Positions 15,570 to 59,760 of a stretch of DNA of 64,000 bases are shown here, in pieces. Every line of letters starts with the position of its first letter. Positions within the stretch are counted from its first letter, which is position 1. Origin of the DNA: Thozetella sp. PMI_491 (Eukaryota > Ascomycota > Sordariomycetes > Chaetosphaeriales > Chaetosphaeriaceae); contig MU270057.1 in assembly GCA_021432635.1 (NCBI GenBank), forward strand, positions 124,001-188,000, written 5' to 3'. The translations under genes were made by a program, and so were the position numbers. A model generated the notes under the pieces. That model did not search any database. It worked only from the letters and a program-made list of their open reading frames with translations, and was not told the origin of the DNA.

Positions 15570-17565
<1,996 letters not shown>

Positions 17566-18586: not shown

Positions 18587-18632
18587 GTCTCGGATAAATC
18601 TATTGACGGGGCCTTCGTCGCTATCTCCTTTC

Positions 18633-23442: not shown

Positions 23443-24026
23443 ATCTGTTCTCTCGATATCAGTTTTGTGGAAGTTAGCGAGACTTGGAACTGTATTGTTA
23501 CGAATATTACACAACTAAGGTACCAATCTATTAGTTTGAACTATATTTCCGGATCCAAGAGTTGCGAGTGGACCTACTCCATATAGTACCTCGTTTGCAC
23601 TGTCGTTCTGGGATTCTTATATACCATTGCCCAAGCTCAAACATCAAATTTCTAGACTCACAATGTGCAGATTCTTTCAGCTATTATATGTTCATTTTAT
23701 GTCTTCTTAAGCGTACTGGTATATGGCCTTCGTCTGATTTTCTGTAAGCTTCGACTACGGCTCTGTAACTATATCGAACGTAAATCGTCAGCCGGGAAGG
23801 GACGGCCCAGTGCTGCCCCTTTTGATGACTTAAAGGGTGAGTAGTAGTTCTTGCGATGTTCAACATCAAAGTTTGTCTCCATCTAATTGCCTCAAAAGTT
23901 GTATCTCGCTTAACCCGCAACGCCATATGTACAACAACCCCAGTTCTGTGCCTACATTCACGCCGGAGCATGAGGAGAATCAAGCTCTCCTGGGACGGAG
24001 GATAATATCTAAAGAGAAGAGCCAAA
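23443..24026. other. Convergent 3' flanks
   Basis: This 584-bp spacer between convergent dioxygenase and salicylate-hydroxylase-like genes shows only short ORFs without features. Confidence 0.5.
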
Positions 24027-39514: not shown

Positions 39515-40215
39515 ACTAGGGAAATCCCTACAATAGGCTGATCTAGCGAGCTTGGGCGACTCCGGTGGAATTTAGGGTGTTCTATCTGCTTAAAATTGAT
39601 AGACATACATGTATATTGTATATTCCTTCTAGAGAGCTGTATCTACAATATGCATGAGGAGCTGGCTAAGCTTCGGAGCCGGGCTACCTAGGCATGAATC
39701 TCATGAATCTCGACAAAATCTGAAGTTTATGCGATACTCCGCTTGGACCCCAGGGAAGTTGGGGACTCAGTGTGTAACCACATAGGCACCTGGAAGGGGA
39801 TCTAAGGCTTCCATCTCGTCGCCACTGGGATCAGGGTGTTGTTGAGATGTCCTCGGGCCGTTATCGGCTAAAGTCGTCTCTTAGGAACACTTCCGAGCAG
39901 GTCCGGGGCGGCGCCCCACTGGCCGGTTGGAATTGTGCTCATTAGCATTGTGGAGATCGGAACCTTGACATGGCGTGGGCATTGTTCAATAGGTGTAACT
40001 AGCCGCTAGCACCTTCATTTTGTAAATATAGTGATTATTGGAGGTACGACAGAAACAAATTACTGTGCTTTCCCCTGTTACATTTGTACCTTAGTCAACC
40101 TGCATATCCAACCCCTCACGTTCCCCGCCCACCTCACCAGACAGTGCACCGCCGTCAAGTCTTAACCAGATTCGAGCACCTATATCCTAGATCCGAGTAA
40201 AAAGTGCACTAGCCA
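39515..40215. promoter_or_regulatory. Promoter region of the ThDP enzyme gene
   Basis: The 701-bp region contains the operator-like repeat at 39891-39908. No ORF of note. Confidence 0.55.
39891..39908. promoter_or_regulatory. Operator-like TTCCG-N8-CGGGG
   Basis: TTCCG, 8 bp (39896-39903), then CGGGG: CCG-N8-CGG. It lies about 310 bp upstream of the ThDP enzyme start. It has the same geometry as three other sites in this cluster; the right arm departs from the perfect palindrome at two bases. Confidence 0.55.
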
Positions 40216-42256
40216 TGAGCAGCCGCCCGTATGTGCACCGCACGGTATATCGTTAGATGAGGAGAATTCTGGATACTGACATGCACGCTCTACCTGTAGG
40301 GAGAAGTATTCGGCATCCTTTGCCTTCTTCGAGGGCCTCTACGAGGTGAGCAGACGTATTCGCCTTCAACCCACAATGACAGTCCTCTCACCACAGTTTA
40401 GGCCGGTGTAAGCCATGTCTTTGTCAATCTTGGCTCGGACCACCCCGCTATCATGGAGGCGCTCGCCCACGGAGCGTATCTAGAGGGGGTAAACTTCCCT
40501 AGGGTCATCACTTGCCCTCACGAGGTAACAAACAAATCAACCCCAAAGAGATTGACCCGATGGAAGAGAAATCTGACATGTTACTAGATGGTCGCCATGT
40601 CCATGGCTGATGGGTTCGCTCGAGTCACCGGGAAGCCCCAGTGCGTCCTGGTCCACGTCGACGTCGGCACCCAGATGTTGGGCTGTGCCATGCACAACGC
40701 CTCCGTGGCTAGATGCCCTGTTTTCGTGTTTGCCGGTCTCTCGCCGTTCACACAGGAGGGTGAGATGCGCGGCTCTAGGACAGAGTACATCCACTGGCTC
40801 CAGGACGCTCCAGATCAGAAGCAGATCGTATCGCAATTCTGCCGATATTCGGGCGAGTTCAAGACCGGCAAGAACATCAAGCAGATGCTCAATCGTGCAC
40901 TTCAATTTGCCACCAGTGACCCCAAGGGCCCTGTTTACATGGTCGGGGCCCGTGAGGTTATGGAGGAGGAGATCTCGTCGTACTCCCTTGACCCCAGCGT
41001 CTGGGAGAGTGTGGCCCCCACGGGCCTGCCACCTTCCGAAGTAGAAAAGATTGCTGAGACGCTGGCTGGCGCTAGCAACCCTCTTATTATCACTGGGTAC
41101 TCCGGGCGAAACCACGCCGCTGTTCCCGAGCTCGTCAAACTCGCTGAGGCTATCCCCGGCGTACAGGTCGTGGACGCCCTGGGGAGCGACGTCTGCTTCC
41201 CGTGGAGCCATCGCTCCTCCTTGGGGATGGGCATTGGCCGCCATCCCAAAATTGAGACGGCAGATGTCATCCTAGTGATCGATTGCGACGTCACTTGGAT
41301 CCCGACCCAGTGCAAGCCTAAGGAGGATGCCAAGATCTTGCACATCGACGTTGACCCGCTCAAGAACAACATGCCCCTCCACTACATCCCAGCTTCCCGC
41401 AGGTACCGGGCTGACGCCGAGACCGCTCTCCGCCAGTTGAACACATTCATCGCTCAAAGCTCCAAATACTTGAATCTTGTCGCCCAAGAACCCTATGCTT
41501 CCCGCTGGAACGCACTGGCTGTGGAGCATAAGGAGCGCCTCGACAAGCTGGCAGAGATGGCGGCCGCGCCTCAGGACAAATCCGTCTCGCCAAATGTTTC
41601 GTATCTCTGCTCACAGCTTCGTCAGACCTGTCCTAGTGACACCATCTGGTGCCTGGAGACCGTCACCAACGCGCCGTTTGTCTACCAGCAGCTGCAGGTC
41701 GATGAGCCTGGCCACTTGCTCAACGCGGGAGGCGGTGGTCTCGGTTGGTCCGGTGGCGCCACAATCGGAGTCAAGCTCGCGTCCGACTATTTAGCCGGCG
41801 GACCCGGTAAGGGTAAGTTCGTTACAGAGATCGTCGGGGACGGTACCTACATGTTCGGCGTGCCCGGCACCGTATACTGGATTGCGAGGCGATACGAGCT
41901 GCCGACGTTGACAGTAGTGTTGAGCAACAAGGGTAAATATATGCAATAGCCTACATCTTTGGCTTGTTGAACGCTTTTTACTAACTCGCTGGGTAGGATG
42001 GAACGCGCCTCGTAACTCGCTGCAGCTCGTCCACCCCACGGGCTACGGATCTAAGGTCTCCAATAAGGAGCTGAACATTTCATTCGATCCCACGCCTGAC
42101 TACTCTGGCATCGCCAAGGCGGCAGCCGGCGGCAAGGCCTGGGCTGGGGTGGCCGCCACCGTGGAGGACCTGGATCGCATGCTTCCCGAGGCAATAGAGC
42201 AGGTCAAGGGCGGTATATCCGCCATCCTCGAGGTTCGCCTCGCGGGGTCTTGGTAA
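40216..42256 (+). CDS. ThDP-dependent 2-oxoacid decarboxylase (benzoylformate decarboxylase-like)
   Basis: Exons 40216-40229, 40300-40345, 40402-40524, 40588-41932 and 41997-42256 give 595 aa. It has the three-domain ThDP layout: an N-terminal Pyr domain with the cofactor-activating Glu61 (CPHEMVAMSMADG), a central domain, and a PP domain with GDG at 478-480 and Asn508 (VVLSNKGWNAP). Aligning by eye to bacterial benzoylformate decarboxylase, Ser32 (LGSDHP) and His84 (VLVHVDVGTQ) match its active-site Ser26 and His70. The rest is closer to fungal acetolactate-synthase-like proteins. A phenylglyoxylate-type decarboxylation to an aromatic aldehyde fits the two neighbouring aldehyde dehydrogenases and the 2-hydroxyacid dehydrogenase. 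Alternatives are acetolactate synthase or 2-hydroxyacyl-CoA lyase activity. Confidence 0.85.
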
Positions 42257-43384
42257 GCTGAGTTTGGGCACTATGGAAGATATATGCCCACTGAAGAATA
42301 GTCAACAACATCTACAAAGCTGTACAGAGTTCATCTTATTCGTATATAGCTCTGCGTATAATGCAAACTGATTAGCTCAACTTTAACTTACTCATATATT
42401 CTATTATCCCCTTTCACCTCCTTTACTACGGCGGTTGGCGGCTCTACGAAACTGAATGCAATGAGCGAACGTCCAGGGCACTCTACAGTCGAAGACTTAT
42501 TCGAGGTCGCCCTTGGTAATCTCGTGTTCTTTGCTACCCAGGTAAGAGGTTGGTAGCTACACCGGTAACTTGGCAGGGTTCGAGCTTAAGGCCTGCACAT
42601 GTGGATCCGAGTTTTATCTATCCCCCTCCCCCCACGGAGCGGCAAGCATTTGTCAGGGCAGCCAAGCTATATCGGTTCTTAAGCGAACCTCACCCTGCAA
42701 GCACGTGGAATTGCTTAGGGCCAATGCAGCTGACCCACACTAGCTCCCTGCGGCAGAAGAAGCTCTACTCCTCGAGGACGCTCGAGCTATCGTGATAAGA
42801 AGGGTAGTTTGGTATTGGGGGCTAAGGCTAGACCTAGAAGCTGGGCATAGATAGGAACGGAATACGGGGTGTTCCTAAGCTACGGAACCCAGGACAGGGG
42901 GATGCCCGGCGCTTACTACGCAAGGGTGGGCCCGCTCCGATTAAGGCACATTCCGGCCGGTGCTCGAGCTAGGCAAGCAGCCTAACCAACCCTTAATTGG
43001 TACCTCACTTCTTTTCTCCCCCTACTGCAGCTCCTATCCACCGAGCGATAGACTCTTCGGAAATGACTATTTCGATACGGGGCTTCTTAGCGAGTGGGTT
43101 CCGGGCGAGTCGATTCCGACCTAGAGCCTGTGCCTCGCGGACTAGGCTTAGCCGTAGCCCACCGGCCAATTTGGGCCAAGTTGTGGCGTGTGGATTGCGT
43201 TCGCGTGGGTGAGAGGGACGACTCCCGGGCTTCAGGTATGGTGGATAGTAAATATTGCTCGGATTGTCTGAAGATAAGGTCACTCTACTAATTCAAACCT
43301 GTTGGCCACCGTTGTCACCGGCGCCCTAATCCTACCCAAAGATCCTCTTGCGTCACCTGCTGAAGCAGCGTGACTAACCCAACC
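42257..43384. other. 1.1-kb spacer before the aldehyde dehydrogenase gene
   Basis: No complete gene is visible. A short ATG-led stretch (42461-42541) ends in a good CAGGTAAGA donor, and 42550-42795 is open, but they do not join in frame to anything recognisable. The right part should be the promoter of the aldehyde dehydrogenase gene. Confidence 0.45.
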
Positions 43385-45077
43385 ATGCTTGCCTCCCTGA
43401 GAGTCTGTAAGCGGTATAGCCACAGCAGTCAGAGTATCTACAGAATACTCCCCCAGCGTCAATTTTCTACAAGCTACGGCATGGCTCAGCAATTCTCAGT
43501 CGACCGACCCATCCCTTTGATAATCAACGGGAAGGATGTCGCAAGCGACATCACTTTCCCTACGGTTAGCCCGCTCACCGGCAAAGAGGTCTGGTCCTGT
43601 GCCTCAGCGACCCCGCAGCACATCGACGATGCCATGGCGGCCGCTCAGACGGCGTTCCGCACTTGGGGGAAGACCAAGCCCTCGTATCGCCGGGATATCT
43701 TCTTGCGCGCTGCCCAGGTGATTGAGAAGCGGAAAGAGGAGCTCGCCGGTTATATGCATCACGAGATCGGCGCCGACAAATTCTACCAAGATTTTATTCT
43801 CGGCCTTGCTATCGAGGGACTGAAGGATACAGCTGGTCGAATTTCTGGTGCTGTGACTGGCACTGTGCCAGATTCGATCCATGAGGGGATGCGCGCTATG
43901 GTCTGGAAGCGCCCATACGGCGTCAACCTGGGCATCGCTCCCTGGTAGGCTCTTTCAGCCCTCTTCTGTTATCGTGTTGCGTTGAGTTTAACGATAAGCT
44001 GACGCATAAATAAGGAACGCACCCTATCATCTAGGTCTTCGCTCCGTTACGTTCGCTCTCGCTGCGGGCAACACTGCGATTCTTAAGGGTGCCGAGTTCA
44101 CACCACACTGCTACTGGGCCATCGCCGATATCTTTAGGGAGGCTGGTCTCCCAGATGGTGTCTTGAACTTGGTCTTTAGCCGACCCTCAGACGCCGCCAG
44201 CGTGACTGAACAGCTCATCGCGCACCCTGATATGAAGAAGATCAACTTTACCGGTAGCAGCAAAGTTGGAAGTATTATTGCTTCTACGGCAGGAAAGCAC
44301 TTGAAACCTGTATTGATGGAATTGGGTGGGAAAGCAAATGCTATTGTGATGAAAGATGCGGATCTGAACAAGGCTGCCATGCACTGCTCTAGGGGGGCTT
44401 TCGTCAACGTAAGTCGACCGGAGCTTGAGGGGTTTTGTGCGAGGTAAAAGAGATAAGTGCTGATGAAGTTATTCTAGGCTGGCCAAATCTGCATGTCTAC
44501 GGAACGTATCCTCGTGCATGCGTCCATTGCCAAGGAATTCCAACAAATCCTTAGCAAGACTATTGATGAGATGTTCGGCACGCCAGAGCAGACCCCTGTG
44601 GTTGTGACTGCCCAGTCAGCCAAACGCAACCGTAGCCTAATCGAGGACGCCATCTCCAAGGGTGCTAAGAGTCTCGACCTCTTTAGCACCAAGACCGGCA
44701 ACCACGAGAATGTCGAATGTAAGATGCGCCCTGTCGTACTTTCTAATATCGACAAGTCCATGGAGCTTTATGGCGGCGAGTCTTTTGGCCCTAGCGTTTC
44801 CTTCTACACCTTTGAAACAGAGGAGGAGGCCCTAGAGCTTGCTAACGATACGGAATACGGCTTGGCAGCCTCGGTCTTCACCGAAGACCTGGGCGCTGGC
44901 TTCCGTATTGCTGAGGCTCTGGACTCGGGGGCCATTCATATTAACTCAATGACTGTGCACGACGAGTTTGCGTTGCCCCATGGCGGTGTCAAGAAGAGCG
45001 GCTTCGGTCGCTTCAATGGGTACCAGGGACTGGACGAATTTCTGTACACCAAGAGCGTGACCTGGATGGAGTCGTAG
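43385..45077 (+). CDS. NAD(P)-dependent aldehyde dehydrogenase (aromatic type) 1
   Basis: Exons 43385-43944, 44015-44408 and 44478-45077 give 517 aa. The ALDH fold is clear: IAPWNAPYHLG for cofactor entry, INFTGSSKVG for the Rossmann loop, MELGGKAN with the general-base Glu and NAGQICMSTERI with the catalytic Cys, then ESFGPSVSFY. The pattern resembles vanillin and salicylaldehyde dehydrogenases. The first 33 residues are rich in Arg and Ser and lack acids (MLASLRVCKRYSHSSQSIYR), as in mitochondrial presequences. A second in-frame Met (MAQQFSV) starts where soluble homologues begin, so two isoforms are possible. It would oxidise the aldehyde released by the ThDP enzyme. Confidence 0.88.
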
Positions 45078-45438
45078 TACCCTGGCGTTTAATTTGGAGA
45101 GTTATTTGTATAGGTACACAATAGCTTATGTATCACGACGTTTTAACAGTCGGCATCTTTCTCTAGAAATTCTAAAATCTGCCACTTTATAAAATGCCCA
45201 GAAGAGACCCAATGCCTAGATCATGCCTAGAATGGTGGCACCGCTATACCTACGAACGTCCCAAGTTCTGCATGCTTGGTGGAGGTTCCTTCCTTTGTGA
45301 TGGCCAATAAGCTGAAGTTTCCGCCTCTTATCAATGCACCTTAACCTAGCCTATATGCGTCCAGTTACAACAAACAAGACATTCTCACTAGAGCTGAATG
45401 AGCGTATCGATCAACCCTACTTCCGATTATCTTCCTAT
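45078..45438. other. Convergent 3' flanks
   Basis: This 361-bp spacer lies between two convergent aldehyde dehydrogenase genes. A reading frame at 45334-45765 overlaps the neighbour antisense and is a shadow. Confidence 0.5.
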
Positions 45439-47119
45439 TCACAGTTTAAAAATGTTGATTTTTACACATTTGAGTTGAGTCCACGCCTCCAAAGCTTCTT
45501 TGCCCAAGTCCCTACCAATACCACTCTCTTTGAAGCCACCGAATGTGGTGTTTGCGTTGACTGTGCCCCACATGTTGACGGTGACCTGACCGCACTCGAC
45601 CGCGTTGCTTACGCGCAAGGCTTTGTTAATGTCGTTGGTGAATACTGCTGCAGCCAGGCCATACGGCGTGTCGTTTGCCAGCCCGACTACCTCCTCCTCG
45701 GTCTTGAACCGAGCGATGCTAGCCACAGGGCCGAAAATTTCCTCGCGGATGATGGCCGCATCTGAATCAACATCGAAAAACGCTGTGTTGGGCACAAAAT
45801 GGCCTGGGGACGGCTCAGCGTCCCCACCGTGAAGAAGCTTGACGTTCTGCTCCTGACCCTTGCGGATGTATCCCATGACACGATCCTTCTGGACGCCACT
45901 GATGAGGGGACCCTTGGTTGTGGTCTCGAGTAGTGGGTCGCCAGCGACGGCGGCCTGCGACATCTTGGAAAATTCAGCTATGAAACGGTCGTAGATGTCC
46001 TCTTGGATGTATATGCGGCTGCCCGCGGCGCATATTTGACCATTATTCACGGTAATACCGGCGACGGTCCAGTTCAGGGCATTCTCAATGTCGGCGTCTG
46101 AGAAGACGATACTTGGGCCCTTGCCGCCTAACTCGAGTGTAACCTTCTTCAAGTTCGTCCGTGCCGACGCTGCAAGAATCTCTCGCCCGACTAGGCCACT
46201 TCCTGTGAAAGACAGCTTATGAACGTCGGGGTGCTCAGCGAGCCTCTTCCCCGCCACAGATCCGATTCCGCAAAGTATGTTGACGACACCGGGAGGGAAA
46301 CCGGCCTCGACGATAAGTTGGCCGAGCTTCTGGGCGTAAAGTGGAGAGAGTTCTGGTGTCTTGATGATTAGAACATTTCCGGCGGCGATAGCGGGAGCGA
46401 GCTTCCAGGTCGTGGTCATGCTGTGATGTAAAGGTTACTAAGACTATCAAGGTAAAGAATAGTGCACAAGTATGGTATATAATCTTTAGCTGAAACATTG
46501 GAGGCTCACAGAGGGGAGTTCCAAGGCACAATGGCCGCACACACCCCGAAAGGCTCGCGTCTCGTATACGCCATACCCTGGGGGATGGTCAAAGAATCGC
46601 CATTCAGCTTGTCAGCCCAACCGGCATAGTAGCGGCAGGTATCGGCCGCTTGCGGCACGAACATGCCAGAGGAGTCCCTAAAGAGAATGCCGGCATCAAC
46701 AGACTCGAGGGACGCTAAGATCTGGCTGTCACGCTCAATCAAGTCTGCTAGGTTGTTGAGCAGACCTCGCCGCTGCTCGGGCAAGGAGTTTCGCCAGGCT
46801 GTGTTGTAGGCTTTCTGGGCCGATGAGACCGCGCGGTCGACATCTGAAGCCTGCGCAGCTGAGACCTTGGCCAGGAAAGCACCCGTAGAGGGATTTTCGA
46901 GGTCGATAGTGGCATGACCTGCAGCAGGGACGAACTCGTTGTCGATGAAAAGACCCGTGGGGACTACGTGCTTGCGTAAGCTGAACCGTCATGAAGTATA
47001 ATAAGAGACATGGGTGTGAAGGTAGCCACCCTTCGGGTAAGGGCCTGGGCCAAGAGTTGATTTATATACTAACCCTCGATCTGGCGACCAGCCACGCCTG
47101 TGATAGTGACTGAAGACAT
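45439..47119 (-). CDS. Aldehyde dehydrogenase 2
   Basis: Exons 47119-47070, 46980-46510 and 46420-45439 give 500 aa. The first exon junction works only with the TTA|GTATAT donor, reading IEGYLRKHVVPTG. Family marks are IVPWNSPLMTTTWKLAP, KLSFTGSGLVGREI, LELGGKGPSIVF with the general-base Glu, NNGQICAAGSRIY with the catalytic Cys, and EIFGPVASI. This is the broad indole-3-acetaldehyde/benzaldehyde-type branch, different from the vanillin-type neighbour. A pair of aldehyde dehydrogenases beside a 2-oxoacid decarboxylase echoes the fungal mandelate route, where NAD- and NADP-linked benzaldehyde dehydrogenases were described. Convergent with the other ALDH gene. Substrate inferred. Confidence 0.87.
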
Positions 47120-48787
47120 AGTGGAGGGGTTGGGTGAGCAATAGGCGACGGCGTCTCAAAACGTACTTTGCCTATTTGGCCTGATTGTGGTACGACCAAA
47201 CAAACCGCAGCGGAGTTACGAGTTGTACAGCAGATATAACTATCCAATGTAAGGCGGCAGCTTCGCGGAACAGGCCCCCGAGTAAGCCACATTCTCACTG
47301 GGAGGACAGCTCCGAACTTTCCATGCGCAAAATAAGCTTCAGAGATTAATTCCAATTGGTTTGCTCCCTCCGGCCGGACAAATGATCAGAGAAAGATCCG
47401 AGTCAAATCGAACGATCATAGCATCCCACACATCTTCTTGGGCTGGCCTATAAATTGCTATTTACCACTGCCTATGGACGCTGATGAGATCATTTTTGGT
47501 CCCCCCCGGTCCTTGTCAAGATTTGCACACCATCTACCATAGCACTGGTCGTCTGTGTGTTTTGATGGACGTCTATTGCTGGCGTTTTGCTAGCAAATAG
47601 CAGGAGAAGTGGGAGAAGAAACGAGACGGACTTGGTTTCCGTTTTGGGGATCGAGGGCAGCTCCAGAAATCGCGGCACTATCCTTTTTACCCTTCCCAAC
47701 GCCGTTTACGCATTTCGCTTCCAAATCACCGATACCTTATCTCGAAAAGCGCTATCTTTACCTACTGCATCGATAAAGCACCAGTCGGGGGTTTTCTTGG
47801 AGTGGGAAAACTGTCTTCGTGTTTCCTCCCTTCGGAATGGAAGTGGGGCAAGTTCGGAAGTTCCGATGCGGGTCTGGTCTAGGCTAAGCCGGCGCCGCAC
47901 GAGCATGGCGCTCTCACCGCAGCCAAACTCGAAAGGGCAATGTTACGCCGGTGTTCCGATAAGGGCGACTTGTTGGCTAAAGATAGGCGCAATGCAGGAG
48001 CTCCGTGGAAAGCGACGATCTAGCTGCGCTGCGGTTGGCCCTCTGTTATGCGCCGGCATGGAAAGAGTTGGATTTAACTTTGACTAAGGGCTGCACAAAT
48101 GAGGCACGGGGCAGTAGTAGCTTGGGGAAGTTCACCCAACCCAAAATCGGGTAAGGGCTGGTGGCGGTCGGGTAAGGGAGATACCTCACTCGCCGGAGAC
48201 AGGATGTACCTCGGATCTTGACACGCCGCGACGGTGCTCGCTATTGGTGTTCGTAGGTGCTCCTAGCTGGTTTCTCATCAAACATAGTGGAGAGTGTACA
48301 TAGGCTGGAATGCCCTCAGAAGTTTCATGGTACAAGTGCTGTGAGCATGCCGCACCTAGGTTGCGCTTCCACAGGGGGTGTGGCGCTGTACCCCAGACTG
48401 TCCTGCCGCCGTGCGTCAGTATCGAGAGTGGTTAAGCGGCGTCATGGGAGCCCACTTCCCCGCATCATCTGCAACAGCCAGAACTTTTCCGCTATCTTGG
48501 TTCAGGAGTCTAGGGCTTGTCCGCTATCAAAGAGCGCCGCGAGTGGGCCTCTCTTATCTTGACCTACGGTATCTTATCCCTGCACCAAGGATTCCAATGG
48601 AGCTCAATGCCCCTTCGCTTCCAAGAGACGACTGCAACATTTGCATTCCCAGAATCCTCACTCGCGAGTCTGTCTGTGTCTTTGTCACTCCTGTATCCAC
48701 TCTACCTCGTGAGAGTTGAGACCAATTGACCCCAGGCCCTAACCTGCACAACTCGCGAGCCCCCCCGGTCGAGGATTAAAACCAAAG
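47120..48787. promoter_or_regulatory. Large divergent upstream region, ALDH 2 / regulator 3
   Basis: The 1.67-kb divergent region has a perfect palindrome TCCGGCCGGA (47369-47378), and CGGAAGTTCCG near 47855. ORFs within it (47587-48087, 48257-48562) lack features. Unusually long for this compact cluster, it could hold an unseen short gene, though I cannot support one. Confidence 0.5.
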
Positions 48788-51359
48788 ATGAACGACGTAC
48801 ACAGCCGGGTATCCAAGCGCCCTACAAAGGGAGACTTGGAGTCCGGGAAGCGCAGGGTTCCCTATGCTCTAAGAGCCTGCGATGCTTGCAGAAAACGCAA
48901 GGGCAAATGCTGCGGTCGGCAGCCATGCGAATACTGCGCCGGTCGCAACCAGTCCTGCCACTTCTCACCATTTACCGGCGAATGGCGACCCGGGGCAGTG
49001 AATATAGATCCGATTCATCATGAACACAGCGGTACTGGCACTCAGCCTTCAGCACCGCCAGCGTGGACGTCAGAGTGCGTTCATCCTTCCTACTCGTCGT
49101 CCCTCACATATCATGTCCTGCCATTTTGCTAACCCAAACCAATCCCAGTGCTCTTGGTTCACTAGGAGAGCTCGTGGCCAACCTACAAGGTCAGATTGAC
49201 AGCCTCAAAGCCCAGGTGAGGAACAGCCACGATGTCAACAGCTCGGCTAGGGAGCCATCTCTATCCTCAACGGACACTCTCGTGGGGCCTTCAACGGGTA
49301 GTCAAGCACCGGACGCAGCTTCCGATTTAGATAAAGTCACATCCAAAGTGAACCAAGACTCGACATTATACCCCCTCGGCGAAGTGCCCGTTAAGCATGT
49401 AACGCGTAGCCACTTCTACGGCCCCACCAGTCCTGACTTTGGCTTGAACGTGGCGCAGATCAAGCTGCGGCAGGGGAGCTTCTCCGGGTCGAACCTGGAT
49501 AGTCCCAACCTGGCGAGCATTGACGAGAACCAGACGGACGATGAAGACCCCAGCGGCGACGACGCCGCTGGCGAACAAGGCAGGGAGGCAGCAACCAACC
49601 GTCGCATGACCAACCCGGCGGTGAGCCAGAGGCTTCTGCAGTTCCGCAACTTCTTTGTTGTGCGGGAGGCGGTTCGCCTCCTTCTCGTGTACCAGGAAGT
49701 TGTGGGCCAGTACCATCCCATCCTAGACGTCGACATGCTCGTCAAACAGGTTGAGTGGTGGTACAGCTGGCCCAGAGGCCAGCAGCCTTCCGGCCTCACC
49801 GCGATCGATGAGACTAGCCTCTTAATCGCCAACCTTGCCATGGCTATCGCACTATGCATCGAATGCACATCACCTAAGACAGAGAACTGCAGCGTGCGAG
49901 ATAAGATCTATGCCGGCTGTCGTGAGCTCATCAATGCCAAGATCATGTCTCCTAACCCTAGCTTAAAGCATGTGATAATTATGCTCCTAGTTGTAAGTAT
50001 CCCGCTTCTGGATGCTCAAATCCATCGCATGGGGGGGTTTAGACTCTAACACAGTCTGCTAGGGGATATTTCACTTTTATCGAGATGTGCTACGATATGC
50101 ATGGCGCATGTGTGGACTCGCCGGCCGGACTTTGATGGAGCTCGGTTTACACAACCCGGATGTGTCAAGGCACGTTCTCAGCTCAAAGGAACAGTGGACC
50201 GAGTACGCCATCATCACCACTAGCATCATCGTGCTTGATCGCCAGTGGAGTGCTGCCACCGGACTGCCAACGCACTTCTCGAATACCGATTTTGACTTAG
50301 ATCTGAAGAACTCGGTATGTGTAGGATCTGACTTCTGTCTAGTCTAGTTAACCTATAATCATCGCTAACGGATTTGTCGTCCAGATCAAGAGTCCATATC
50401 TTAAAGGAATGATGGCATTCATCCTAATCAGCGACAAGTTCAGCGAGCCCAGTTCACGCGTGGCCAATGGAGGGGCCTACGAGGACGACGACGAATTTGA
50501 CATTATGAATTTCCAGATCGAGCAGTGGCGAAAGAAGGCGGTTGGGAGTTACGGCTTCCAGCAGATCCGTGCCGGTCAGTCGCCCTCTGGCTACCCTCCG
50601 GCCTGGGCGATCCTCCTCGACCTGCGAGCGAACGCCGTGCGCGAACTGCTGCTTCGACCATTCTTCTTTTCAAACACGTCGGCAGCAGCGAGCCGGAGGA
50701 ATATCCAGCCAGGTCTCAGGCTCATTACGGATTCCATCGATGTCCTTTCTACTCTCGACAAAACCACAGAGATCTATCGTCAGCATCACCCTTGCTTCCA
50801 GCATATACTAGCCACGTCCTGCGCTCTCCTGTTCCTCATTGTTGTCTACGTGGAACAGAACCGCGCCAGTCTCGGTAGCGACCTACCTGAAGGTTACGGT
50901 GCGTCAGTAAGCCGGAATTTCAAGAACGCGTACTCGCTTGCGAGCACGTACAGCAAATCTTCGCGCGCATCGAAGAGATTGTGGAAGCGCCTGGTGCTCA
51001 TGAAGAAGCTACTCATCGACGCGGGCCTTTTGCGTGCCGACGACACGGCGCCAGACACAACCCAACCGGTAGCCCCAGTCGCACCACCCGCCCCGGAGCC
51101 TCCTCGAGTCGAGAATGTTTACTCAGCCACTAAGGACGCAGTGAACATGCCACACTCTAGGGATGCTAGGGTACACGACCCCCCATTGGCCCCTTCGTTC
51201 ATAGACTTGGAGCATGAGTACCCATTCTCAACAGACTCTTCTTCGCCTTCAGACTCTCTGCCTGGGTTAGGTCCTCATGAGCTGAACATGGATTGGGCGG
51301 CATCGATGACGGAAGAATGGTCGATGAACAATACAAATGGTCTCTTTTGGGGCATATGA
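48788..51359 (+). CDS. Zn2Cys6 transcription factor (regulator 3)
   Basis: Exons 48788-49074, 49149-49992, 50063-50314 and 50385-51359 give 785 aa. The zinc cluster has Cys31, Cys34, Cys41 or Cys42, Cys47, Cys50 and Cys57 (ACDACRKRKGKCCGRQP). A short coiled coil follows (LGELVANLQGQIDSLKAQV), as expected for dimerisation. The fungal-specific domain includes FRNFFVVREAVRLLLVYQEVVGQYHPILD and YRDVLRYAWRMCGLAGRTLMELG. The C-terminus is Pro- and Ser-rich and ends in Trp-containing acidic patches (MDWAASMTEEWSMN) suited to activation. It is surrounded by the UbiX/UbiD, ThDP and dehydrogenase genes and is the best candidate to bind the TTCCG-N8-CGGAA sites. It converges on the UbiX gene with only 79 bp between stops. 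Confidence 0.88.
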
Positions 51360-51438
51360 CAATGTGTGGACAAATTGTACATTAGTAACTTGTCGAACTA
51401 ATTTATGGATGGCGAAAGCTCGCCCCCACCCCAAAATG

Positions 51439-52272
51439 CTAGCCCGTGCTATGATACCCCTGATTAGATTCCCTCTTGAATCCGTCCCACCTCTCAAATC
51501 CATCTGTGTGTATACCTAGAGAATCCAGCATCCTGCCTACCCCCTGATTGACTATGTCCTCCAGGCTCTCGGGTCGTGTGTAGAATGCGGGCATGGGAGG
51601 GAAGATAACGGCGCCTGCGCGCCGCAGGAACAACATGTTGTCCAGGTGTACGTCGGACAATGGTGTCTCGCGTACAGCAAGCAGTAGCCTGCGCCCCTCT
51701 TTAAGACTCACGTCGGCGGCGCGCGAGATCAAGTCATCGCAGAAGCCCACCCGGACTGCCGCCAGCGTTTTCATACTGCAAGGCACGATGGCCATACCAT
51801 CGTGCTGGAAGGACCCAGAGGCGATCGGCGCTGACAGGTCTTTGGCCGTGTAGTTGGCGTGGGCGAGGCCACGGATCTCACTCTCGGTCCAGTGTGTCTC
51901 ATACTTGAGCGTAGCCAGTGCCCACTTGCTTATGACCAAGTGTGTCTCAACGCCGAGGTGCCGCAGAACATTCAACATGCGGATTGCATACGGTGCCCCT
52001 GTTGCGCCTGTGATGCCGATGACGATGCGGCGTGGGCGATCGGGCATGTACTGGTGGCTGGAGGTAAGGGGAGGTGTGATACATGTGGAGCTGCCATGCG
52101 GTTTCTGGAAAGACGAGCTCGCTCTGCTTGAGGAATGGTTCTTCCTCATTGGTGCTTTGCAATGAAGGGAGGCTATGGGCCATCCGGACTGACATGTCTG
52201 GGTACGGACGGGCTGAAGGGCGACGCGGGAGATAGCTGTTGACGCCTCCCGCAACAAACTTCGCGGTGGCAT
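51439..52272 (-). CDS. PAD1: UbiX/PAD1-type flavin prenyltransferase
   Basis: An intronless 277-aa ORF. After an ~80-residue Arg/Ser-rich leader that looks mitochondrial, the flavoprotein core starts RRIVIGITGATGAPYAIRML. It continues through VISKWA, VPCSMKTLAAVRVGFCDDLISRAADV, RETPLSDVHLDNML and FPPMPAFYTRPESLEDIV, all hallmarks of UbiX. These enzymes prenylate reduced FMN with dimethylallyl phosphate to make the prenyl-FMN cofactor of UbiD decarboxylases. The UbiD-type gene is directly divergent across 655 bp, an arrangement also common for fungal PAD1/FDC1. The shared promoter carries a perfect TTCCG-N8-CGGAA repeat. Confidence 0.92.
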   Translation of the reverse strand: MPPRSLLREASTAISRVALQPVRTQTCQSGWPIASLHCKAPMRKNHSSSRASSSFQKPHGSSTCITPPLTSSHQYMPDRPRRIVIGITGATGAPYAIRMLNVLRHLGVETHLVISKWALATLKYETHWTESEIRGLAHANYTAKDLSAPIASGSFQHDGMAIVPCSMKTLAAVRVGFCDDLISRAADVSLKEGRRLLLAVRETPLSDVHLDNMLFLRRAGAVIFPPMPAFYTRPESLEDIVNQGVGRMLDSLGIHTDGFERWDGFKRESNQGYHSTG

Positions 52273-52927
52273 AGCTTTGCGTAGTCTCTCAAATCAGAAC
52301 CTAGAATCTAGAGAAAGCTTTGGTCCAGGCAGGCTAACTATCTGTGATCGCTGCCGAGATGCTTTACTGTGATAGTAGATACTAGGTTTACACAAGCAAC
52401 GTGTGGTTGTGATATGGTTGTGCCAGTCTCAAAATGTGGTGTCTCGAGCGGAGGTCACTGTCGCTCGCCAAAATATACTACAGAGAGCGAGCTTCTTAGC
52501 CCTCCCTACCCGCATTCGCCGTTAGCTTCAATCTCGCTACTGCTACACACATTACATACTGCCTCTGACAAAAGTCATTTTCGCTGTGGTTGGGCGTAAC
52601 AATGTCACCTATCCGCAATGGAGCAAGCCCCACTTCGCAACGAGGACGGAGGCGGACTAATTAATCGGTTCCGAGATAGGCCGGAATGCTTCCTAAAAGC
52701 ACATTGAGCGGTCCAGGAATGCGGACCGAAACTCGCTAGTGCAACTATAGGTACTCTTTTCTAACCTCCGAGTTGATGCAACGGCGCACTAGCGCCGGGA
52801 GAGCTCTGAGCTTGAAGATGCGCTTGAAGATGGGTGTAGCACCTTATACGGATCCTCGGTTTATCCTCGTCCCTGTTTTGTAGGTGTGTGGCTTCTCTAA
52901 GCTGGAATACCATTTTTCGAGAAATTC
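52273..52927. promoter_or_regulatory. Divergent promoter, UbiX / UbiD
   Basis: The 655-bp region drives both halves of the prenyl-FMN system and contains the operator-like palindrome at 52669-52686. CGGACTAATTAATCGG lies immediately upstream of it. Confidence 0.65.
52669..52686. promoter_or_regulatory. Operator-like TTCCG-N8-CGGAA (perfect)
   Basis: Perfect 5-bp arms around an 8-bp spacer (52674-52681). It lies 242 bp upstream of the UbiD start and 397 bp upstream of the UbiX start. Identical arms and spacing recur at 59423-59440. Confidence 0.65.
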
Positions 52928-54637
52928 ATGACAGCAGTGCCATCCATGTCTCTCGCACGCACACGCGGTCGGATGCTGCTGCCAAAGGCTACAACTACCT
53001 CTATCTCGACTCTTTTGCTGCCGGCACTGGCTCGTGGGGCGCATACTTCGAGAAAAGCAACCTCGAATATTGAGCCCGCTGCCGCACAACTTGACTTCCG
53101 GACTTTTATTGAGATACTTCGGCAGGATAATGATCTTGCCGAGATTAACCACGAAGTTGACCCTCATCTCGAGGTTGGAGCAATTGTGCGACGAGTCAGC
53201 GAAGTGAACGACAAGGCGCCACTCTTCAACAATGTAAAGGGAGCCAAGGACGGCCTTTGGCGCATGTTTGGAAATGCCGCGAGTCTAAGGAGCCGCAAAG
53301 AGGAGAGATTCGGTCGCATTGCAAGAAATCTCGGCATCCCTCCAACTTCAACCTGGCAGCAGATATGCGCACGTTGGCGAGAAGGCAAGAGGGCTAGCCC
53401 GCTTGTCCCAAATGTCCTTCCTACAGGCCCCTGCAAGGAAAATAAAATCTCGGGTGACGCCGTCGACTTGCACAAGCTCCCAGCCCCTTTACTTCATCAA
53501 GCAGACGGGGGCAAGTACATCCAGACATATGGTCTCCATGTGTTGCAGACTCCGGACAAGTCGTGGACGAACTGGTCCATCTTTCGCGGCATGGTGCACG
53601 ACAAGAACCGCCTCGTCTGTCTTGTGGGCAGCGGCCAGCACAACTCCCTGATCCGCGAGAAGTGGCTTGCAGCAGGAAAGACTGAGATTCCGTGGGCTCT
53701 AGCCTTGGGTGTGCCGCCGGCCGCTTCCATCGCCGCAGCCATGCCCGTACCCGAGGGCGTGTCAGAGGCTGAGTACGTAGGTGCCTTGGTCGGGAGGCCC
53801 CTCGACCTTGTCAAGTGTGAACTCAGCGACCTTCTTGTACCAGCAAACTCTGAAATTGTGATGGAAGGCACGTTCTCCTTTACGGATAAGGCCATGGAGG
53901 GGCCATTTGAGGACTACCTGGGACTTATGTTCGACGACGATTTGCATATGATGCCCCTCTTCACAGTCAAGACCATCACTTACAGAGACGATGCCATTCT
54001 TCCCGTGTCAGTTCCCGGACGCATCACCGACGAATCGGTAAGTCTCCCTTCCATGCATCGTTGGGTTGCCCCCATCCCTGCTAACTTGCGATGAAACTAG
54101 CACACAACCGCGGCGTTAGCAGCCGCCGAAGTCCTCGAGCTCTGTCAGCAGCACGGCCTCCCCATTCTCGACGCCAACGCTCCCCTCGAGACCCACGCCA
54201 CCTGGTGCGCACTGAAAGTCGACATCAAGAAGTTGGCAGAGATGAAGACAACTCCTGAAGAATTCTGCAAGAAACTCGGGGACTTGGTTTATAATGACAA
54301 GAGCTGCATGTTGGTCAACCGAGTTTTGCTCGTCGGCGACGATGTAGACGTACAAAATTTCAACGATATCGTCTGGGCCATGGCTACTAGGTGTCACCCA
54401 GGCAAAGGGGAGTATATCTTCGACGACGTGCCTGGGTTCTTCCTTACTCCCTACATGTCGCACGGGGTTTGCGACCCAAGGCGAGGAGGCAAGATCGTCT
54501 CGAACTGCTTACTCCCTATGGAATACGAAGGCAAGAGGAACTTCCGAGTGGTGGATTTTGAGAATTCATACCCAGAAGACATCAAAAAGCGGGTGTTGTC
54601 CAACTGGAAGAGCATGGGCTTTGTAACACCGGTATGA
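52928..54637 (+). CDS. FDC1: UbiD-family prenyl-FMN aromatic decarboxylase
   Basis: Exons 52928-54037 and 54101-54637 give 548 aa, including a ~45-residue Arg/Ser-rich mitochondrial-like leader. UbiD features include KAPLFNNVKG, PTGPCKENKISGDAVDL, TYGLHVLQTPDKSWTNWSIF, GVPPAASIAAAMPVPEGVSE and SHGVCDPRRGGKIVSN. Aligning by eye with Aspergillus ferulate decarboxylase, prFMN/catalytic residues Arg220, Gln237, His238 and Glu324 are kept. The third catalytic acid is Asp329 instead of Glu, and the hydrophobic stretch before the Gln-His pair (VIPPQH) is VGSGQH. Asp at that site is usual in bacterial UbiD acting on hydroxybenzoates, so a hydroxyaryl acid rather than cinnamate seems likelier. The symbol marks the family only. 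Confidence 0.88.
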
Positions 54638-55484
54638 TTATCGTGCGCCTTAGTATTCATGCTCATTCCTTCGCCGTCTTAGCTATAGGGAATACCTCCG
54701 TAAATAGACAATAGCAACTAACTGCTGACTTTTTGATGCCATAAACTTCGTTGTTCTCATCGATGCAACCAAAAGACGGGATTACCAGCTCTACTCCGGA
54801 GCCTACATCCGCCAAGAGGGCCGATTCCCATGTGGCTTATCTTCGCGCAGCCCACACGCTTATCACAGTCATATCTGCAATACACTAACTCCAAAGAGCC
54901 GGTCCGGCTCTGGGGACCTGGACAAGAGATAAGGCACCTGCGACTCTTGCTTGACTACGCCCTGGTAGCGAGTAGTGCAGTTCCGAATACCTACGGAGAG
55001 TCGCCGGAGGACCCATTCCGCAAGAATCTTGGCGCACGAGTTATCAATCCCAGGGTCTGTCCAGTTAGGAGCGCCCAATCTCAATTACAAATAGTAAAAT
55101 TGGGTTAGGTAGGGGGCTATGCTTGTTGATAAGGGCAACAGATGGCTGGAGAGGCCGCTAGGACGCTATATCCCCCACGTATCTCCGGAAGTAACCCTTA
55201 GTTGCTTCCGGTAGCCCCGGCGCCTCCCAAATAACCTGCACTAATTATGACAAGGGGCAAATTACCAGATACCTGCCCTGGATAATATCCCCAGGGCAAT
55301 AGTTGCAACCCAGATACGAGCAAGCAGCGCGCACATATCGGCGAACAGGTTATATTTGACCACTGACCCAATCGAGGTCCCTTGTTGCATGTAGCTCACC
55401 CTGCATCACTGATTAAATGTTCGCTCGAGGATCCTCGAATTTCTCATCGTTCCCGCTCAAATTACTTTCGACATCCACGCCACA
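54638..55484. promoter_or_regulatory. Promoter region of the MFS permease gene
   Basis: The 847-bp region includes the operator-like repeat at 54982-54999. ORF 54830-55108 lacks features. TTCCGGTAGCCCCGG near 55206 is a CCG-N7-CGG near miss. Confidence 0.55.
54982..54999. promoter_or_regulatory. Operator-like TTCCG-N8-CGGAG
   Basis: TTCCG, 8 bp (54987-54994), then CGGAG, one base short of the perfect palindrome. It lies about 490 bp upstream of the permease start and 345 bp downstream of the UbiD stop. Confidence 0.6.
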
Positions 55485-57032
55485 ATGAGTACCGACGAGG
55501 ATGGCGGTAAGAAGGATAATGTCCTTCTCTCGTCGCTGACCTCGAGCTCCGCTATCAAGATCAGCGACATTCAGGATCACCCGCCCAGCGAGTCTGCCGT
55601 CACAGAGAAGCCAGGATCTTCCACGGAAATGTTTGATCCCGAGATCGAAGCCCGCGTGAGGCGGAAGATTGATACTGCAATCGTCCCTTTGGCCACTTTA
55701 ATGTTCCTCTTTTGCTTCATCGACCGTGCCAACATTGGCAACGCCCGACTGGCTAGCTTCGAGGCTGATCTCGGTCTCAAGGGAAATGATTACAACGCGG
55801 TGAATAGCATCTTTTACATATCATACATTCTCTGCGAAATCCCATCCAACATCCTCTGCAAATATATGGGACCCGGCTGGTTCCTTCCGATCATCACCAT
55901 CCTTTTCGGTATCGTGTCTATAGCCAGTGCCTGGGTCAGCAACTACTCTCAGCTTGCTGCTGTTCGATTTCTTCTCGGCATGGTTGAGACTGGCTTAATG
56001 CCTGGGCTTTCTTATTATATGTCCCGCTGGTACCGCCGCTCCGAACTTACGTTCCGCCTCTCCATGTACATCTCAGCCGCACCACTCTCCGGAGCCGTCG
56101 GGGGTCTGTTAGCTTCTGGTATTCTTAGGATCCAAGGCTTTGGACCATTCCCTGCTGGGTCGTGGAGAACAATCTTTGTTCTTGAGGGCATTGTAACTGT
56201 CATCATTGGCCTTGTTGCCCTGGCCTTCCTGGCCGATCGTCCAGAGACGGCTCGCTTCCTCACGGAAGAGGAAAAGACCATTGCTATCAATCGGGTGAGG
56301 TCAGAAAGAGTCGGGACTTCGGATGTCGTCGATAAGTTGAATTTCAAAAAGCTCTGGAAGGGTGCTGCAAACCCAGTAACCGCTGCAACCGCTATCACCT
56401 TCCTTCTCGAAAGCATCACTGTCCAAGGGCTTACCTTTTTCGCCCCGACTATTGTCAAGACCATCTTCCCACAGGCCTCTGTGGTTCAACAGCAGCTGTT
56501 AACTGTTCCGCCTTATATCTTTGGTGTTATTTGCATCTTAGCTACATGCTACAGCAGCTGGAAGTTCAATACTCGGCAGCTCTTCATTATCATCACCTCG
56601 CCGGCAATCATAATCGGTTATCTCATCTTCCTCGCTACTCGGAACTCGATCGCTCGTTACATAGCAACCTTCTTGATTGCTAGCTCAGCCTTTACGATGG
56701 GTCCGCTTTGCCATTCACAAGCCGCTGCTAACGTTAGCAGCGACTCGGCTCGCAATATGGCGATTGCCGTGACTATGTTCTTTGGGAATATCGGCAGTTT
56801 AATTTCCACCTGGGCATTTCAGTCATGGGACGGCCCTGACTATCATATAGGCAATGGGCTGAATTTTGCTACGTCTAGCACGATGATGATAATTGCCACT
56901 CTGACCTTGTTCTGGATGAAATGGGACAATAACAAGAGGGACCGCAGCACAGACAGTGCATTGGATGGCCTGTCGCAGCAAGAAATTGAAGAGCTGGAGT
57001 GGAAGCATCCTGAATTCCGTTGGATGCCATGA
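55485..57032 (+). CDS. MFS anion permease (allantoate/nicotinate permease family)
   Basis: An intronless 515-aa protein with 12 predicted membrane spans between a ~65-residue polar N-terminus and a short C-terminus. The first helix IVPLATLMFLFCFIDRANIGNARL is the signature of the anion:cation symporter branch (Dal5/Tna1-like). It is followed by YILCEIPSNILCKYMGPG, LLGMVETGLMPGLSYYMSRWYRRSE and FLADRPETARFLTEEEK in the central loop. Such permeases import organic acid anions with protons. In this cluster it probably imports the aromatic acid substrate. An operator-like site lies in its promoter. Confidence 0.92.
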   Translation: MSTDEDGGKKDNVLLSSLTSSSAIKISDIQDHPPSESAVTEKPGSSTEMFDPEIEARVRRKIDTAIVPLATLMFLFCFIDRANIGNARLASFEADLGLKGNDYNAVNSIFYISYILCEIPSNILCKYMGPGWFLPIITILFGIVSIASAWVSNYSQLAAVRFLLGMVETGLMPGLSYYMSRWYRRSELTFRLSMYISAAPLSGAVGGLLASGILRIQGFGPFPAGSWRTIFVLEGIVTVIIGLVALAFLADRPETARFLTEEEKTIAINRVRSERVGTSDVVDKLNFKKLWKGAANPVTAATAITFLLESITVQGLTFFAPTIVKTIFPQASVVQQQLLTVPPYIFGVICILATCYSSWKFNTRQLFIIITSPAIIIGYLIFLATRNSIARYIATFLIASSAFTMGPLCHSQAAANVSSDSARNMAIAVTMFFGNIGSLISTWAFQSWDGPDYHIGNGLNFATSSTMMIIATLTLFWMKWDNNKRDRSTDSALDGLSQQEIEELEWKHPEFRWMP

Positions 57033-57553
57033 AACCCATCGTTTTGGCGTGCCACCCTCTTAGAGCTTGTAGCACAGAATCCTTGGTTGAAGGGTGACTG
57101 GTCTTTGAGTTGCTTGCAAATAAGGCACAGTTAGCGTTAGTGCATGGAGTTGATATGCAGCGCTTTCATACTCCAACTAGGTGATCAATAATACAAATAT
57201 CCATTTCAAGATCTTCATCCTCTTGCAGTGTAGCGATCGGACTTGTATAATGGCGAGCAGATATTGTTACATTTTACGGAAAGTAGGTGTGGCAACAACC
57301 TGCGGAAGGCGCCCACTGTAAAACGCCTCAGCCCTACTTCTAGCTACATTTAGCATGTCTATCAAGAGAGCAGTTACGAAGGCTGATATAACTCGAAATA
57401 GATTGAAGAAGCGAGACTTCGTTTATTCGAGCATAGAATTTAGTAATCGTTTCAGCACAGATACATAGAAGACTGACGAGCACGCCACTCTTTTCCTTCC
57501 TCTCCGAGGCAGCCTCAAGGCACCAAAGCCTGGGAACATGGTACTAAAAGCAC
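57033..57553. other. Convergent 3' flanks
   Basis: This 521-bp spacer lies between the convergent permease and flavin-oxidase genes. No other feature was seen. Confidence 0.5.
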
Positions 57554-59152
57554 TCATAGCTTCCCCCGTTTCTGAAGCTGATTGATTTTCTCGTGTGTCT
57601 TGACAAATGCTTTGTAAGTAGGGAATAGGCTGTTGGGGTCCCATTTCTGCCGGATTGTGAGGAACTTGGCCAGCGCAGTATCGGTGAGAACCTTGGTCTA
57701 CAGACATCCGAGTCAGCACTGGCTCATTAAATGCCGTAAATCGAGCACGCTTAGGTAATACTTGCGTTGGCATCCTCGTGGTTAATGTCAAACTCAGTTA
57801 TGTACATGCCGACAGCGACTGGGAACGCCCTCCTATAGTTGTCGCGCATCGGTTGCTGGATCGCCGGCTCGAGCTTAGGATCGGTCCAGCCAGTAATAGT
57901 CGAAATGTAGAGATCCTGGGGAAGACTGAGGCATGCATCCTCTTCATCGGGCACAATGTCGCAGTGGCACATGAAGACGGAGGAAGTCCGGGTCGGCAAC
58001 TCGAGCATGCACGGTTTGATGGCCTCGAGGAGCTGAGGCGAATAACATCAGTACGCTACCTTCCGTATCGCACATCTAGCCAAGATTACTTACTCGCTGA
58101 AGAGGAACGTCGGGGTCGTTCATGATGCTGTTGATCTGCCACTTCTCCTGCTTCCCGTTACCGAGGAAACCACGCTTGCGAGCAAATACCTCCTCGAGAT
58201 CTCTCCTCTGGACGGGCTTTGATTCGATGAGAAAGTCCTGGACCTGGGGGGTGAGCTTGTCATAGGCACCGAGGAGAGTCCTCGCCTCACGCTGCGTGTC
58301 GCAGTAGCAGAGGAGGTTGAGAGTCAAATGGAGCTTGCCCGAAGGAGGAATGGCATCGGTAGTGTATCGGGGGTCGTACTTCTCGGGGTAGTCGATGGTT
58401 AAGTTAAGATCAGTGCCATATTTGGGGGTGTCACGACCGCGCTCGATGGACCAAGTCATAATGTCCATGTAATTCTCGCGGTTGATGTCGAACTTGAGAA
58501 CCCTTTCCCACATGACAGATCTGGCAATGGTGCGGCCCCAGAAGCGAGTCACGACGGCGAAGAAGCCCTGGCCACTGCCCCGGGCGGCCCAGAACAAGTC
58601 GGGGTTCTCGCTCCGGCTAGCAATGACGGTGCGGCCGTCCGGCACGACCATCTCGATTTTGGTAATCCACGTCTGGTTCGTAGCACCCCAACCGCGGACG
58701 AACCATCCCTGGCCTCCAGCCAGCATGAAGCCGGCAGAACCGACTGTAGGGGCATGGCCGTGAGGGAAGAAGCGATTGACCTCCTTTAGTTTGGCCGCCA
58801 GCTCCTCGACGCGGCTGGCTGGGCCGAAGGCGATCTCCTGCGTGATTGGGTCATACTCTATGCGGCGGTTTAGGTTGACTGCGTCAATGAGGATGCCGTC
58901 CTGGATCAAGGAAGGAACGTGCATGATGTGACCGGATGAGCGGACACCGACGCAGACGCCCAGCTCAGTGGCACGCTCGAGAGCGTTGGCAACATCGGCC
59001 GGTGTCTCGGCAACATGAATCTCGCGAGGATAGCGCGGCAAGGTGTGGGCGGAGGGGTTGTTACGCCTGCAGCGCTCATAGTCCTCGGTTCCACGGATGA
59101 GGATCTTGGAAGAATATTGGGGAGTAGTGGTATAGAAACGGGGGTCCGTCAT
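57554..59152 (-). CDS. VAO-type FAD-linked oxidoreductase
   Basis: Exons 59152-58094, 58032-57766 and 57697-57554 give 489 aa. The second intron has a GC donor (AAC|GCAAGT); the only GT nearby breaks the frame before the conserved end KFLTIRQKWDPNSLFPTYK. PCMH-fold FAD-binding marks are GVCVGVRSSGHIM, with a His placed for 8-alpha-histidyl attachment, then TVGSAGFMLAGGQGWFVRGWG and GRTVIASRSENPDLFWAARGSG. The second covalent Cys of bicovalent BBE enzymes is not evident. Relatives oxidise phenolic benzyl alcohols, sugars or N-heterocycles. An in-frame Met 23 codons upstream is possible, but the MTDPRFYTTT start fits better. It is divergent from the 2-hydroxyacid dehydrogenase with a perfect operator-like repeat between. 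Substrate unknown. Confidence 0.83.
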
Positions 59153-59760
59153 TGTGCCCAATAGATAATATTTGCTTTCAGTTGGACTTGGAGAGGTATG
59201 ATACAATAGTGTGGCGGGCAATCTATATCTCTATAGTGCTATTGGGGCAATAGTGGTATAACTGCTTGATGAGATCTCACATCGGCCTACAACCAAGTCG
59301 TATTATTTATCGTGGCTGTCCAGAGCTCGTGATGTTTCGACGTAATAGCCCCACAGAGGTGAGCTACTGAGCATCGTAATGTGGGGGAAGCTGTCCATCC
59401 CAGCCTCTGCTCCGGTCGTGGATTCCGGCGACAGCCGGAACTTCCGGTCGCCTAACACGGCTAGCGTGTGCTATCACGACCGGGACCAGTAGGGTTTCAC
59501 TCCGGCACATGGTTCGATGCATCGTCGCTACCCACCGTATGCGCGGCAATGGGATTGAGATTAGTGGCCCTAGCGGGTCCAATGAGATAGAGCTCTCGGC
59601 TGCGTGCCGTCAAACAAGGTTTCGTCCAAGTCCAAGGCTTCCTTCCCTCGGCAGGGTGCTCTCTCCCTAGCCGGGGACACGATCAACAGAAGACTCATAT
59701 TACCTTTAAAGTATGATACTAGGCGCAGTGACAAGACGCTATTGATCGTATTAGATCTGG
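59153..59760. promoter_or_regulatory. Divergent promoter, flavin oxidase / 2-hydroxyacid dehydrogenase
   Basis: The 608-bp divergent region carries the perfect palindrome at 59423-59440, followed at once by another TTCCGG half site. Confidence 0.65.
59423..59440. promoter_or_regulatory. Operator-like TTCCG-N8-CGGAA (perfect, extended)
   Basis: Arms TTCCG and CGGAA flank an 8-bp spacer, and the symmetry extends two bases further inward (TTCCGGC-GACA-GCCGGAA). It lies 271 bp upstream of the flavin-oxidase start and about 320 bp upstream of the dehydrogenase start. The arms and spacing equal those in the UbiX/UbiD promoter. Confidence 0.65.

Follow-up and report, generated by a model that had tools for sequence, protein, structure and literature searches.

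Candidate Zn2Cys6 dimer sites in two divergent promoters of a putative aromatic-acid cluster of Thozetella sp. PMI_491

Do the promoters of a fungal aromatic-acid cluster share a binding site for a Zn2Cys6 regulator, and if so, what kind of site is it? The question is raised by a 64,000-nucleotide stretch of Thozetella sp. PMI_491 (GCA_021432635.1, contig MU270057.1, positions 124,001 to 188,000), hereafter called the window, in which all positions are counted. Its right half (about 32.4-63.7 kb) has the appearance of a fungal gene cluster for the catabolism of aromatic acids. A first-pass annotation proposed that four promoters of this cluster carry one TTCCG-N8-CGG operator and are probably governed by a protein that it named regulator 3, which is probably the Zn2Cys6 regulator encoded at 48788-51359. 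In the present study, two of the sites proved to be perfect everted palindromes, each lying in a different divergent promoter. We regard these two as candidate dimer sites of the ordinary Zn2Cys6 type in half-site-rich cluster DNA, a tentative reading to which we give a probability of roughly 45%. The evidence falls short of proving a regulon of four promoters controlled by regulator 3, and does not establish an N8 operator of fixed spacing across the cluster.

Perfect and relaxed sites

The perfect palindrome TTCCG-N8-CGGAA occurs at 52669-52686, in the divergent UbiX/UbiD promoter, and at 59423-59440, in the divergent promoter of an FAD_binding_4 oxidase gene and a flavocytochrome b2-type gene; neither is assigned to a strand, and there is no other perfect copy in the window, as the first-pass annotation had reported. 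The arms at 59423 extend to 6 bp (TTCCGG-N6-CCGGAA). Opposed CCG/CGG triplets separated by eight bases are thus present in exact form in these two promoters and with a variant right arm in two others, both on the plus strand: TTCCG-N8-CGGGG at 39891-39908, upstream of a gene for a thiamine diphosphate (ThDP) enzyme, which was located correctly, and TTCCG-N8-CGGAG at 54981-54998, upstream of an MFS transporter gene, for which the sequence had been given correctly and the start (54982) one base too far. The claim that the sites lie 240-490 bp from starts was borne out for six genes, with distances to the ATG of 242 bp (UbiD), 271 bp (FAD oxidase), 307 bp (ThDP enzyme), 397 bp (UbiX), 487 bp (MFS transporter), and 321 or 333 bp (flavocytochrome, which has two in-frame ATGs). 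These ATGs were read off the sequence, and the choice of ATG is a hand model.

The shorter form TTCCG-N8-CGG has eight matches over both strands, which correspond to six sites (26187, 38825, 39891, 52669, 54981, and 59423). The sites at 26187 and 38825 had been missed. The former (26187-26202, plus strand) lies in a left-half divergent promoter between genes for an FAD-dependent enzyme and a Zn2Cys6 regulator, which contradicts the statement that the left cluster has none; the latter (38825-38840, plus strand) lies inside a possible Gpr1/Fun34-like gene. The stricter form TTCCG-N8-CGGRR does have four sites in the window, every one in the right half, and the assignment of the four to one cluster holds to that extent. 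However, the site at 26187 is as near the perfect motif as that at 39891 (two mismatches each; one each at 38825 and 54981), and cluster specificity was not upheld. Neither relaxed site, 39891 or 54981, can be distinguished from background. When one mismatch was allowed anywhere, further sites appeared at 14551 (left half) and 31314, the triplet being broken in both.

An intergenic TTCCG-N8-CGG was not found upstream of the FMO, SDR, aldehyde dehydrogenase 1 (ALDH1), ALDH2, or permease genes or the regulator gene at 48788-51359. Control of the whole cluster through this motif was rejected on this basis, and the assignment to regulator 3 was not supported as stated, the upstream region of the regulator itself being without a site.

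Chance, half-sites, and the choice of motif

The strength of the statistical evidence depends on whether the motif is regarded as named beforehand. For the counts in noncoding DNA, masking of 27 hand-drawn gene spans left 28 intergenic segments with a total of 24,031 bases. With the motif taken as given, two perfect intergenic copies compare with an expectation of 0.0175 and were obtained in none of 2000 dinucleotide shuffles, in one of 300 order-3 Markov sets, and in none of 300 order-5 sets; across the null models, the intergenic expectation was 0.018-0.063. The five loose intergenic TTCCG-N8-CGG sites compare with 0.87 and 1.04 in Markov sets (five reached in 0/300 and 1/300). When the spacing was slid from 0 to 150 over the real intergenic DNA, spacing 8 gave these five sites and the other 150 spacings a mean of 1.18 and a maximum of 4. 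Over the whole window, the eight matches exceeded the 2.19 (standard deviation 1.40) of dinucleotide shuffles, none of 100 reaching eight, and there were six matches to the perfect motif at one mismatch against 1.89 expected (the highest of 100 shuffles had five). Perfect copies in the whole-window slide amounted to about 0.1 per spacing (15 over 151 spacings).

However, the arm, spacing, and orientation were picked after the data had been seen, and several results weigh against the preferred reading. Among 21504 categories of 5-base arms with spacers of 0-20, 78 had at least two perfect copies in the window. A repeated intergenic palindrome was found in 12.4% of shuffles when the arms had to end in CCG or CGG, and in 38-40% of Markov sets when they could contain either triplet at any position. 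In the whole-window slide, the loose count at spacing 8 (six) was matched at one of the 150 other spacings. A scan of 1344 triplet patterns (extended half by second triplet by spacing 0-20) returned three with five intergenic sites, namely, TTCCG-N8-CGG, TTCCG-N7-CCG, and TGCGG-N20-CCG; the count for the second corresponds to four places, one palindrome being counted once per strand. In a dyad scan of the right intergenic DNA, the top 12 of which were poly-A dyads, CCG-N8-CGG ranked 748th of 43206 (uncorrected p = 0.023). The gene models and the mask were also drawn by hand.

Four intergenic categories with CCG/CGG arms repeated (TTCCG with spacer 8, CGGAA with 1, CCGCC with 4, and CGGCG with 6) against 0.43 expected; none of 200 null sets reached this number, and it was the top excess of 32 overlapping trinucleotide classes, uncorrected. 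This excess is to be read with caution: the null behind it was too low in general (597 palindromes against 505 and 13 repeated categories against 7.6), CCG palindromes in total were only eighth of the 32 classes (49 against 35.2, z 1.9), and the four categories were scattered over both halves. We concluded that the significance is strong if the motif is given and marginal after its choice is counted. The figure of about 0.06 chance occurrences in the first-pass annotation had the correct order of magnitude for a single motif named in advance; it took no account of how arm, spacing, and orientation had been selected, and was rejected as a measure of significance.

The excess of the half-site is more robust than the N8 motif. 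The right intergenic DNA (11.1 kb) contains 47 copies of TTCCG/CGGAA against 19.7 expected from dinucleotides, which puts it in second place among the 5-mers, behind AAAAA. By segment permutation, its density was higher on the right than on the left (p = 0.0028); by counts, this difference ranked 16th of 512 (p = 0.027) and was not significant after correction. Half-sites are also clustered, with 14 neighbour pairs within 25 bp in both halves against 6.2 expected (p = 0.002). The geometries, however, are mixed. Across both halves, the 20 half-site pairs with a spacer of up to 30 include four geometries seen twice, namely, direct 10 and 21, inverted 1, and everted 8; the four repeated geometries compare with 1.95 under uniform spacing (P of four or more = 0.087), and a palindromic geometry repeated in 52% of uniform-spacing draws. 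The left intergenic DNA (12.9 kb) is itself enriched in the half-site (35 against 21.5 expected, rank eleventh). The fixed N8 spacing that had been claimed was not supported as stated, other geometries recurring equally often. On a preference for this spacing the results are divided, the spacing slide speaking for it and the geometry recurrence, the dyad rank, and the tied patterns against it; a strict N8 rule was set aside on the dyad scan and the geometry test. No strong extended consensus was seen by eye in the flanks of the half-sites on either side (47 right, 35 left).

The 11-mer CGGAACTTCCG at 59436-59446, an inverted N1 pair, has its first half-site in common with the 59423 palindrome, and its reverse complement CGGAAGTTCCG is found at 47855-47865 in the ALDH2/regulator intergenic region; neither is assigned to a strand. 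Upstream of the FMO-like gene, TTCCGAGATAG at 34829-34839 (plus strand) shares its 11 bases with the left portion of the 52669 site and lacks the right arm. As a separate observation, the overlap of the palindromic CGGAACTTCCG with the 59423 palindrome places three half-sites within 24 bp.

These results make it quite possible, although we do not favour it, that the four reported operators are a post hoc set without a common function: TTCCG is common in the noncoding DNA and close pairs are frequent, and therefore some geometry repeats. Three observations argue for more than chance and pattern selection. Both perfect copies lie in divergent promoters that belong to a single apparent pathway, the excess and clustering of half-sites do not depend on the choice of spacing, and of all TTCCG-Nk-CGG spacings up to 150, only 8 reached five loose intergenic sites. 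If chance is nevertheless the answer, the locus would be an example of how easily Zn2Cys6-like palindromes repeat once half-sites are common.

Geometry of the sites and the protein that may read them

Under the reading that we prefer, TTCCG/CGGAA would be an extended Zn2Cys6-like half-site in which the right intergenic DNA is rich, at several spacings and in several orientations, and the two perfect everted palindromes, one per divergent promoter, would be the best candidates for real dimer sites. A single dimer bound in the middle of the promoter could induce both genes of a divergent pair together. What the data show is the sequence and position of the sites, the excess of half-sites, and the gene families; that any protein binds is inferred. 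According to PMC12719309, CCG-Nx-CGG with everted triplets is a geometry known for Zn2Cys6 proteins, which agrees with the first-pass annotation on this point, and a Zn_clus protein is encoded next to UbiX. The sites in the window have the triplet orientation (CCG...CGG) of the everted-repeat class, to which Leu3 and Pdr3 are linked by the title of a reference in PMC5082525. A literature search for the text string CCGN8CGG gave no match. The spacing of everted sites is N4 for Leu3 and N0 for Pdr3, and differs from the N8 in the window.

Other known elements resemble the sites in part. The FacB acetate regulator has the consensus TCC/G-N8-10-C/GGA, and TTCCG-N8-CGGAA includes TCC-N10-GGA, a likeness to this consensus only; TCC-N10-GGA was not clearly enriched in the right intergenic DNA (6 against 2.8 expected, p = 0.07). 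AmyR/InuR sites, CGGN8CGG, have the same 8-base gap between triplets in the portion of PMC5468973 available to us; however, they are direct repeats, whereas the sites in the window are everted. TTCCG as a Zn2Cys6 site was not found in the available results of a literature search for TTCCG/CGGAA with Zn2Cys6.

The regulator gene at 48788-51359 (plus strand; PF00172, E 1.4e-6) adjoins UbiX and was read with an intron at 49075-49148, one of four open splices. It encodes a zinc cluster of the form CX2CX6CX5CX2CX6C, followed by a linker of some 40 residues and, as judged by eye, a stretch resembling a coiled coil. A Zn2Cys6 gene beside UbiX/UbiD genes is the layout of the SdrA type. For the Aspergillus niger genes cdcA and padA, motifs have been suggested, reportedly in Plumridge 2010. 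According to PMC6776626, these motifs are absent from neighbouring genes, and cdcA and padA are under the direct or indirect control of SdrA, a Zn2Cys6 factor encoded next to them. The same source describes a cinnamate/sorbate decarboxylation cluster in which, as in the present one, genes for an Fdc1-type UbiD, a UbiX, and a Zn2Cys6 regulator are adjacent. The Thozetella cluster differs in that the regulator lies beyond UbiX rather than between the two genes, UbiX and UbiD are under one divergent promoter, and the neighbours include mandelate-type enzymes; the regulator is likened to SdrA by gene context. The local regulator may be the binder, and the genes of each pair may be co-induced.

A bolder form of this proposal is that an SdrA-like regulator acts through TTCCG-N8-CGGAA as its operator and induces two divergent pairs together, which would link cinnamate decarboxylation and a mandelate-type oxidation route within one cluster and represent a new everted Zn2Cys6 spacing. 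We consider this unlikely. If true, it would supply a fungal aromatic-acid regulator with an operator that can be tested, a binding site for SdrA not having been found in the accessible literature on that protein, and would tie UbiX/UbiD decarboxylation genes and mandelate-type enzymes under one switch.

The sites may alternatively be read by a general carbon regulator of the AcuK/AcuM kind rather than by a cluster regulator. The AcuK/AcuM element, CCGN7CCG, is conserved in Aspergillus and T. marneffei, and its regulators act on gluconeogenesis and wider metabolism, as stated in the available parts of PMC11373862 and PMC12719309. Three of the four reported sites (39891, 52669, and 59423) are readable as CCG-N7-CCG because the right arm reads CCGG; 38825 also contains it, and 59423 is readable as CGG-N6-CCG as well. 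TTCCG-N7-CCG tied for the top intergenic count in the scan described above. However, the sites at 54981 and 26187 do not fit, a direct repeat without extended palindromic arms leaves the full 5-base inverted arms unexplained, and the plain dyad was not enriched in the right intergenic DNA (7 against 4.3 expected, p = 0.15). We hold this alternative to be improbable; the inverted arms and the 54981 site make us lean towards everted N8. Least probable is a single cluster-specific four-promoter regulon, TTCCG-N8-CGGRR under an SdrA-like regulator 3, which is suggested by the right-half confinement of the strict form and by the control of cdcA and padA by SdrA, and is opposed by the left-half site at 26187, the six upstream regions without a site, and the absence of the suggested A. 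niger motifs from neighbouring genes.

Gene content and putative pathway

The right half encodes an FMO-like flavoprotein, an SDR, the ThDP enzyme, two ALDHs, the Zn2Cys6 regulator, UbiX, an Fdc1-type UbiD, the MFS transporter, the FAD_binding_4 oxidase, the flavocytochrome b2-type enzyme, and an amino-acid permease. The genes of the window are split by introns (by eye), two encode Zn_clus regulators, and a tRNA search of the window found none. The UbiX or flavin prenyltransferase-like (PadA-like) flavoprotein is encoded at 51439-52272 on the minus strand (PF02441, E 1.3e-43), and the Fdc1-type (CdcA-like) UbiD decarboxylase at 52928-54637 on the plus strand, its first exon scoring 411 bits to PDB 7ney, Ferulic acid decarboxylase 1. 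Relatives of UbiD were found in genome contigs in 5 of 28 candidate stretches, all bacterial metagenome-assembled genomes at 39-45% identity, which were left aside, and in viral contigs in none of 10. From these gene families, a route from cinnamate to styrene via UbiX/UbiD is possible.

The ThDP enzyme (40215-42256, plus strand) has benzoylformate decarboxylases as its top PDB matches, which are distant (74.6 bits). The MFS transporter is encoded at 55485-57032 on the plus strand, the FAD_binding_4 oxidase (BBE-like by PDB search) at 57560-59152 on the minus strand with an approximate 3' limit, and the flavocytochrome b2-type 2-hydroxyacid dehydrogenase (Cyt-b5 and FMN_dh) at 59761-61195 on the plus strand. 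In the last gene, the Cyt-b5 (59761-59943) and FMN_dh (59936-61192) matches are in different frames, as if a short intron lay between them. The gene families make possible a second route, from mandelate via benzoylformate and benzaldehyde to benzoate by the flavocytochrome b2, ThDP, and ALDH enzymes. The substrate of the flavocytochrome could equally be lactate: its top PDB matches are yeast cytochrome b2/L-lactate dehydrogenase (242 bits), and L-mandelate dehydrogenase is lower among them (139 bits), which speaks against the mandelate route. In A. niger, mandelic acid is converted to benzoyl formate, benzaldehyde, and benzoic acid, as given in the available text of PMC12388069.

At 38660-39514, a weak GPR1/FUN34/YaaH match scored 20.0 bits and missed the cut-off of 25 bits; PMC9200314 places a member of this family close to padA/cdcA in the SORBUS cluster of P. 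roqueforti. In the UbiD-MFS intergenic region, AGAGCCGGTCCGGCTCT at 54895-54911 is a perfect palindrome with 8-bp arms around a single central base; it lies 70 bp ahead of the 54981 site. An inner exon of the gene for the left FAD-dependent enzyme had no Pfam match at 0.001 and a sub-threshold FAD_binding_3 match. The enzyme is encoded in a left-half group (15570-28934) together with an amidohydrolase, a CoA-transferase III, an intradiol dioxygenase, and the second Zn2Cys6 regulator; the enzyme itself is monooxygenase-like, and these genes possibly constitute a lower aromatic pathway.

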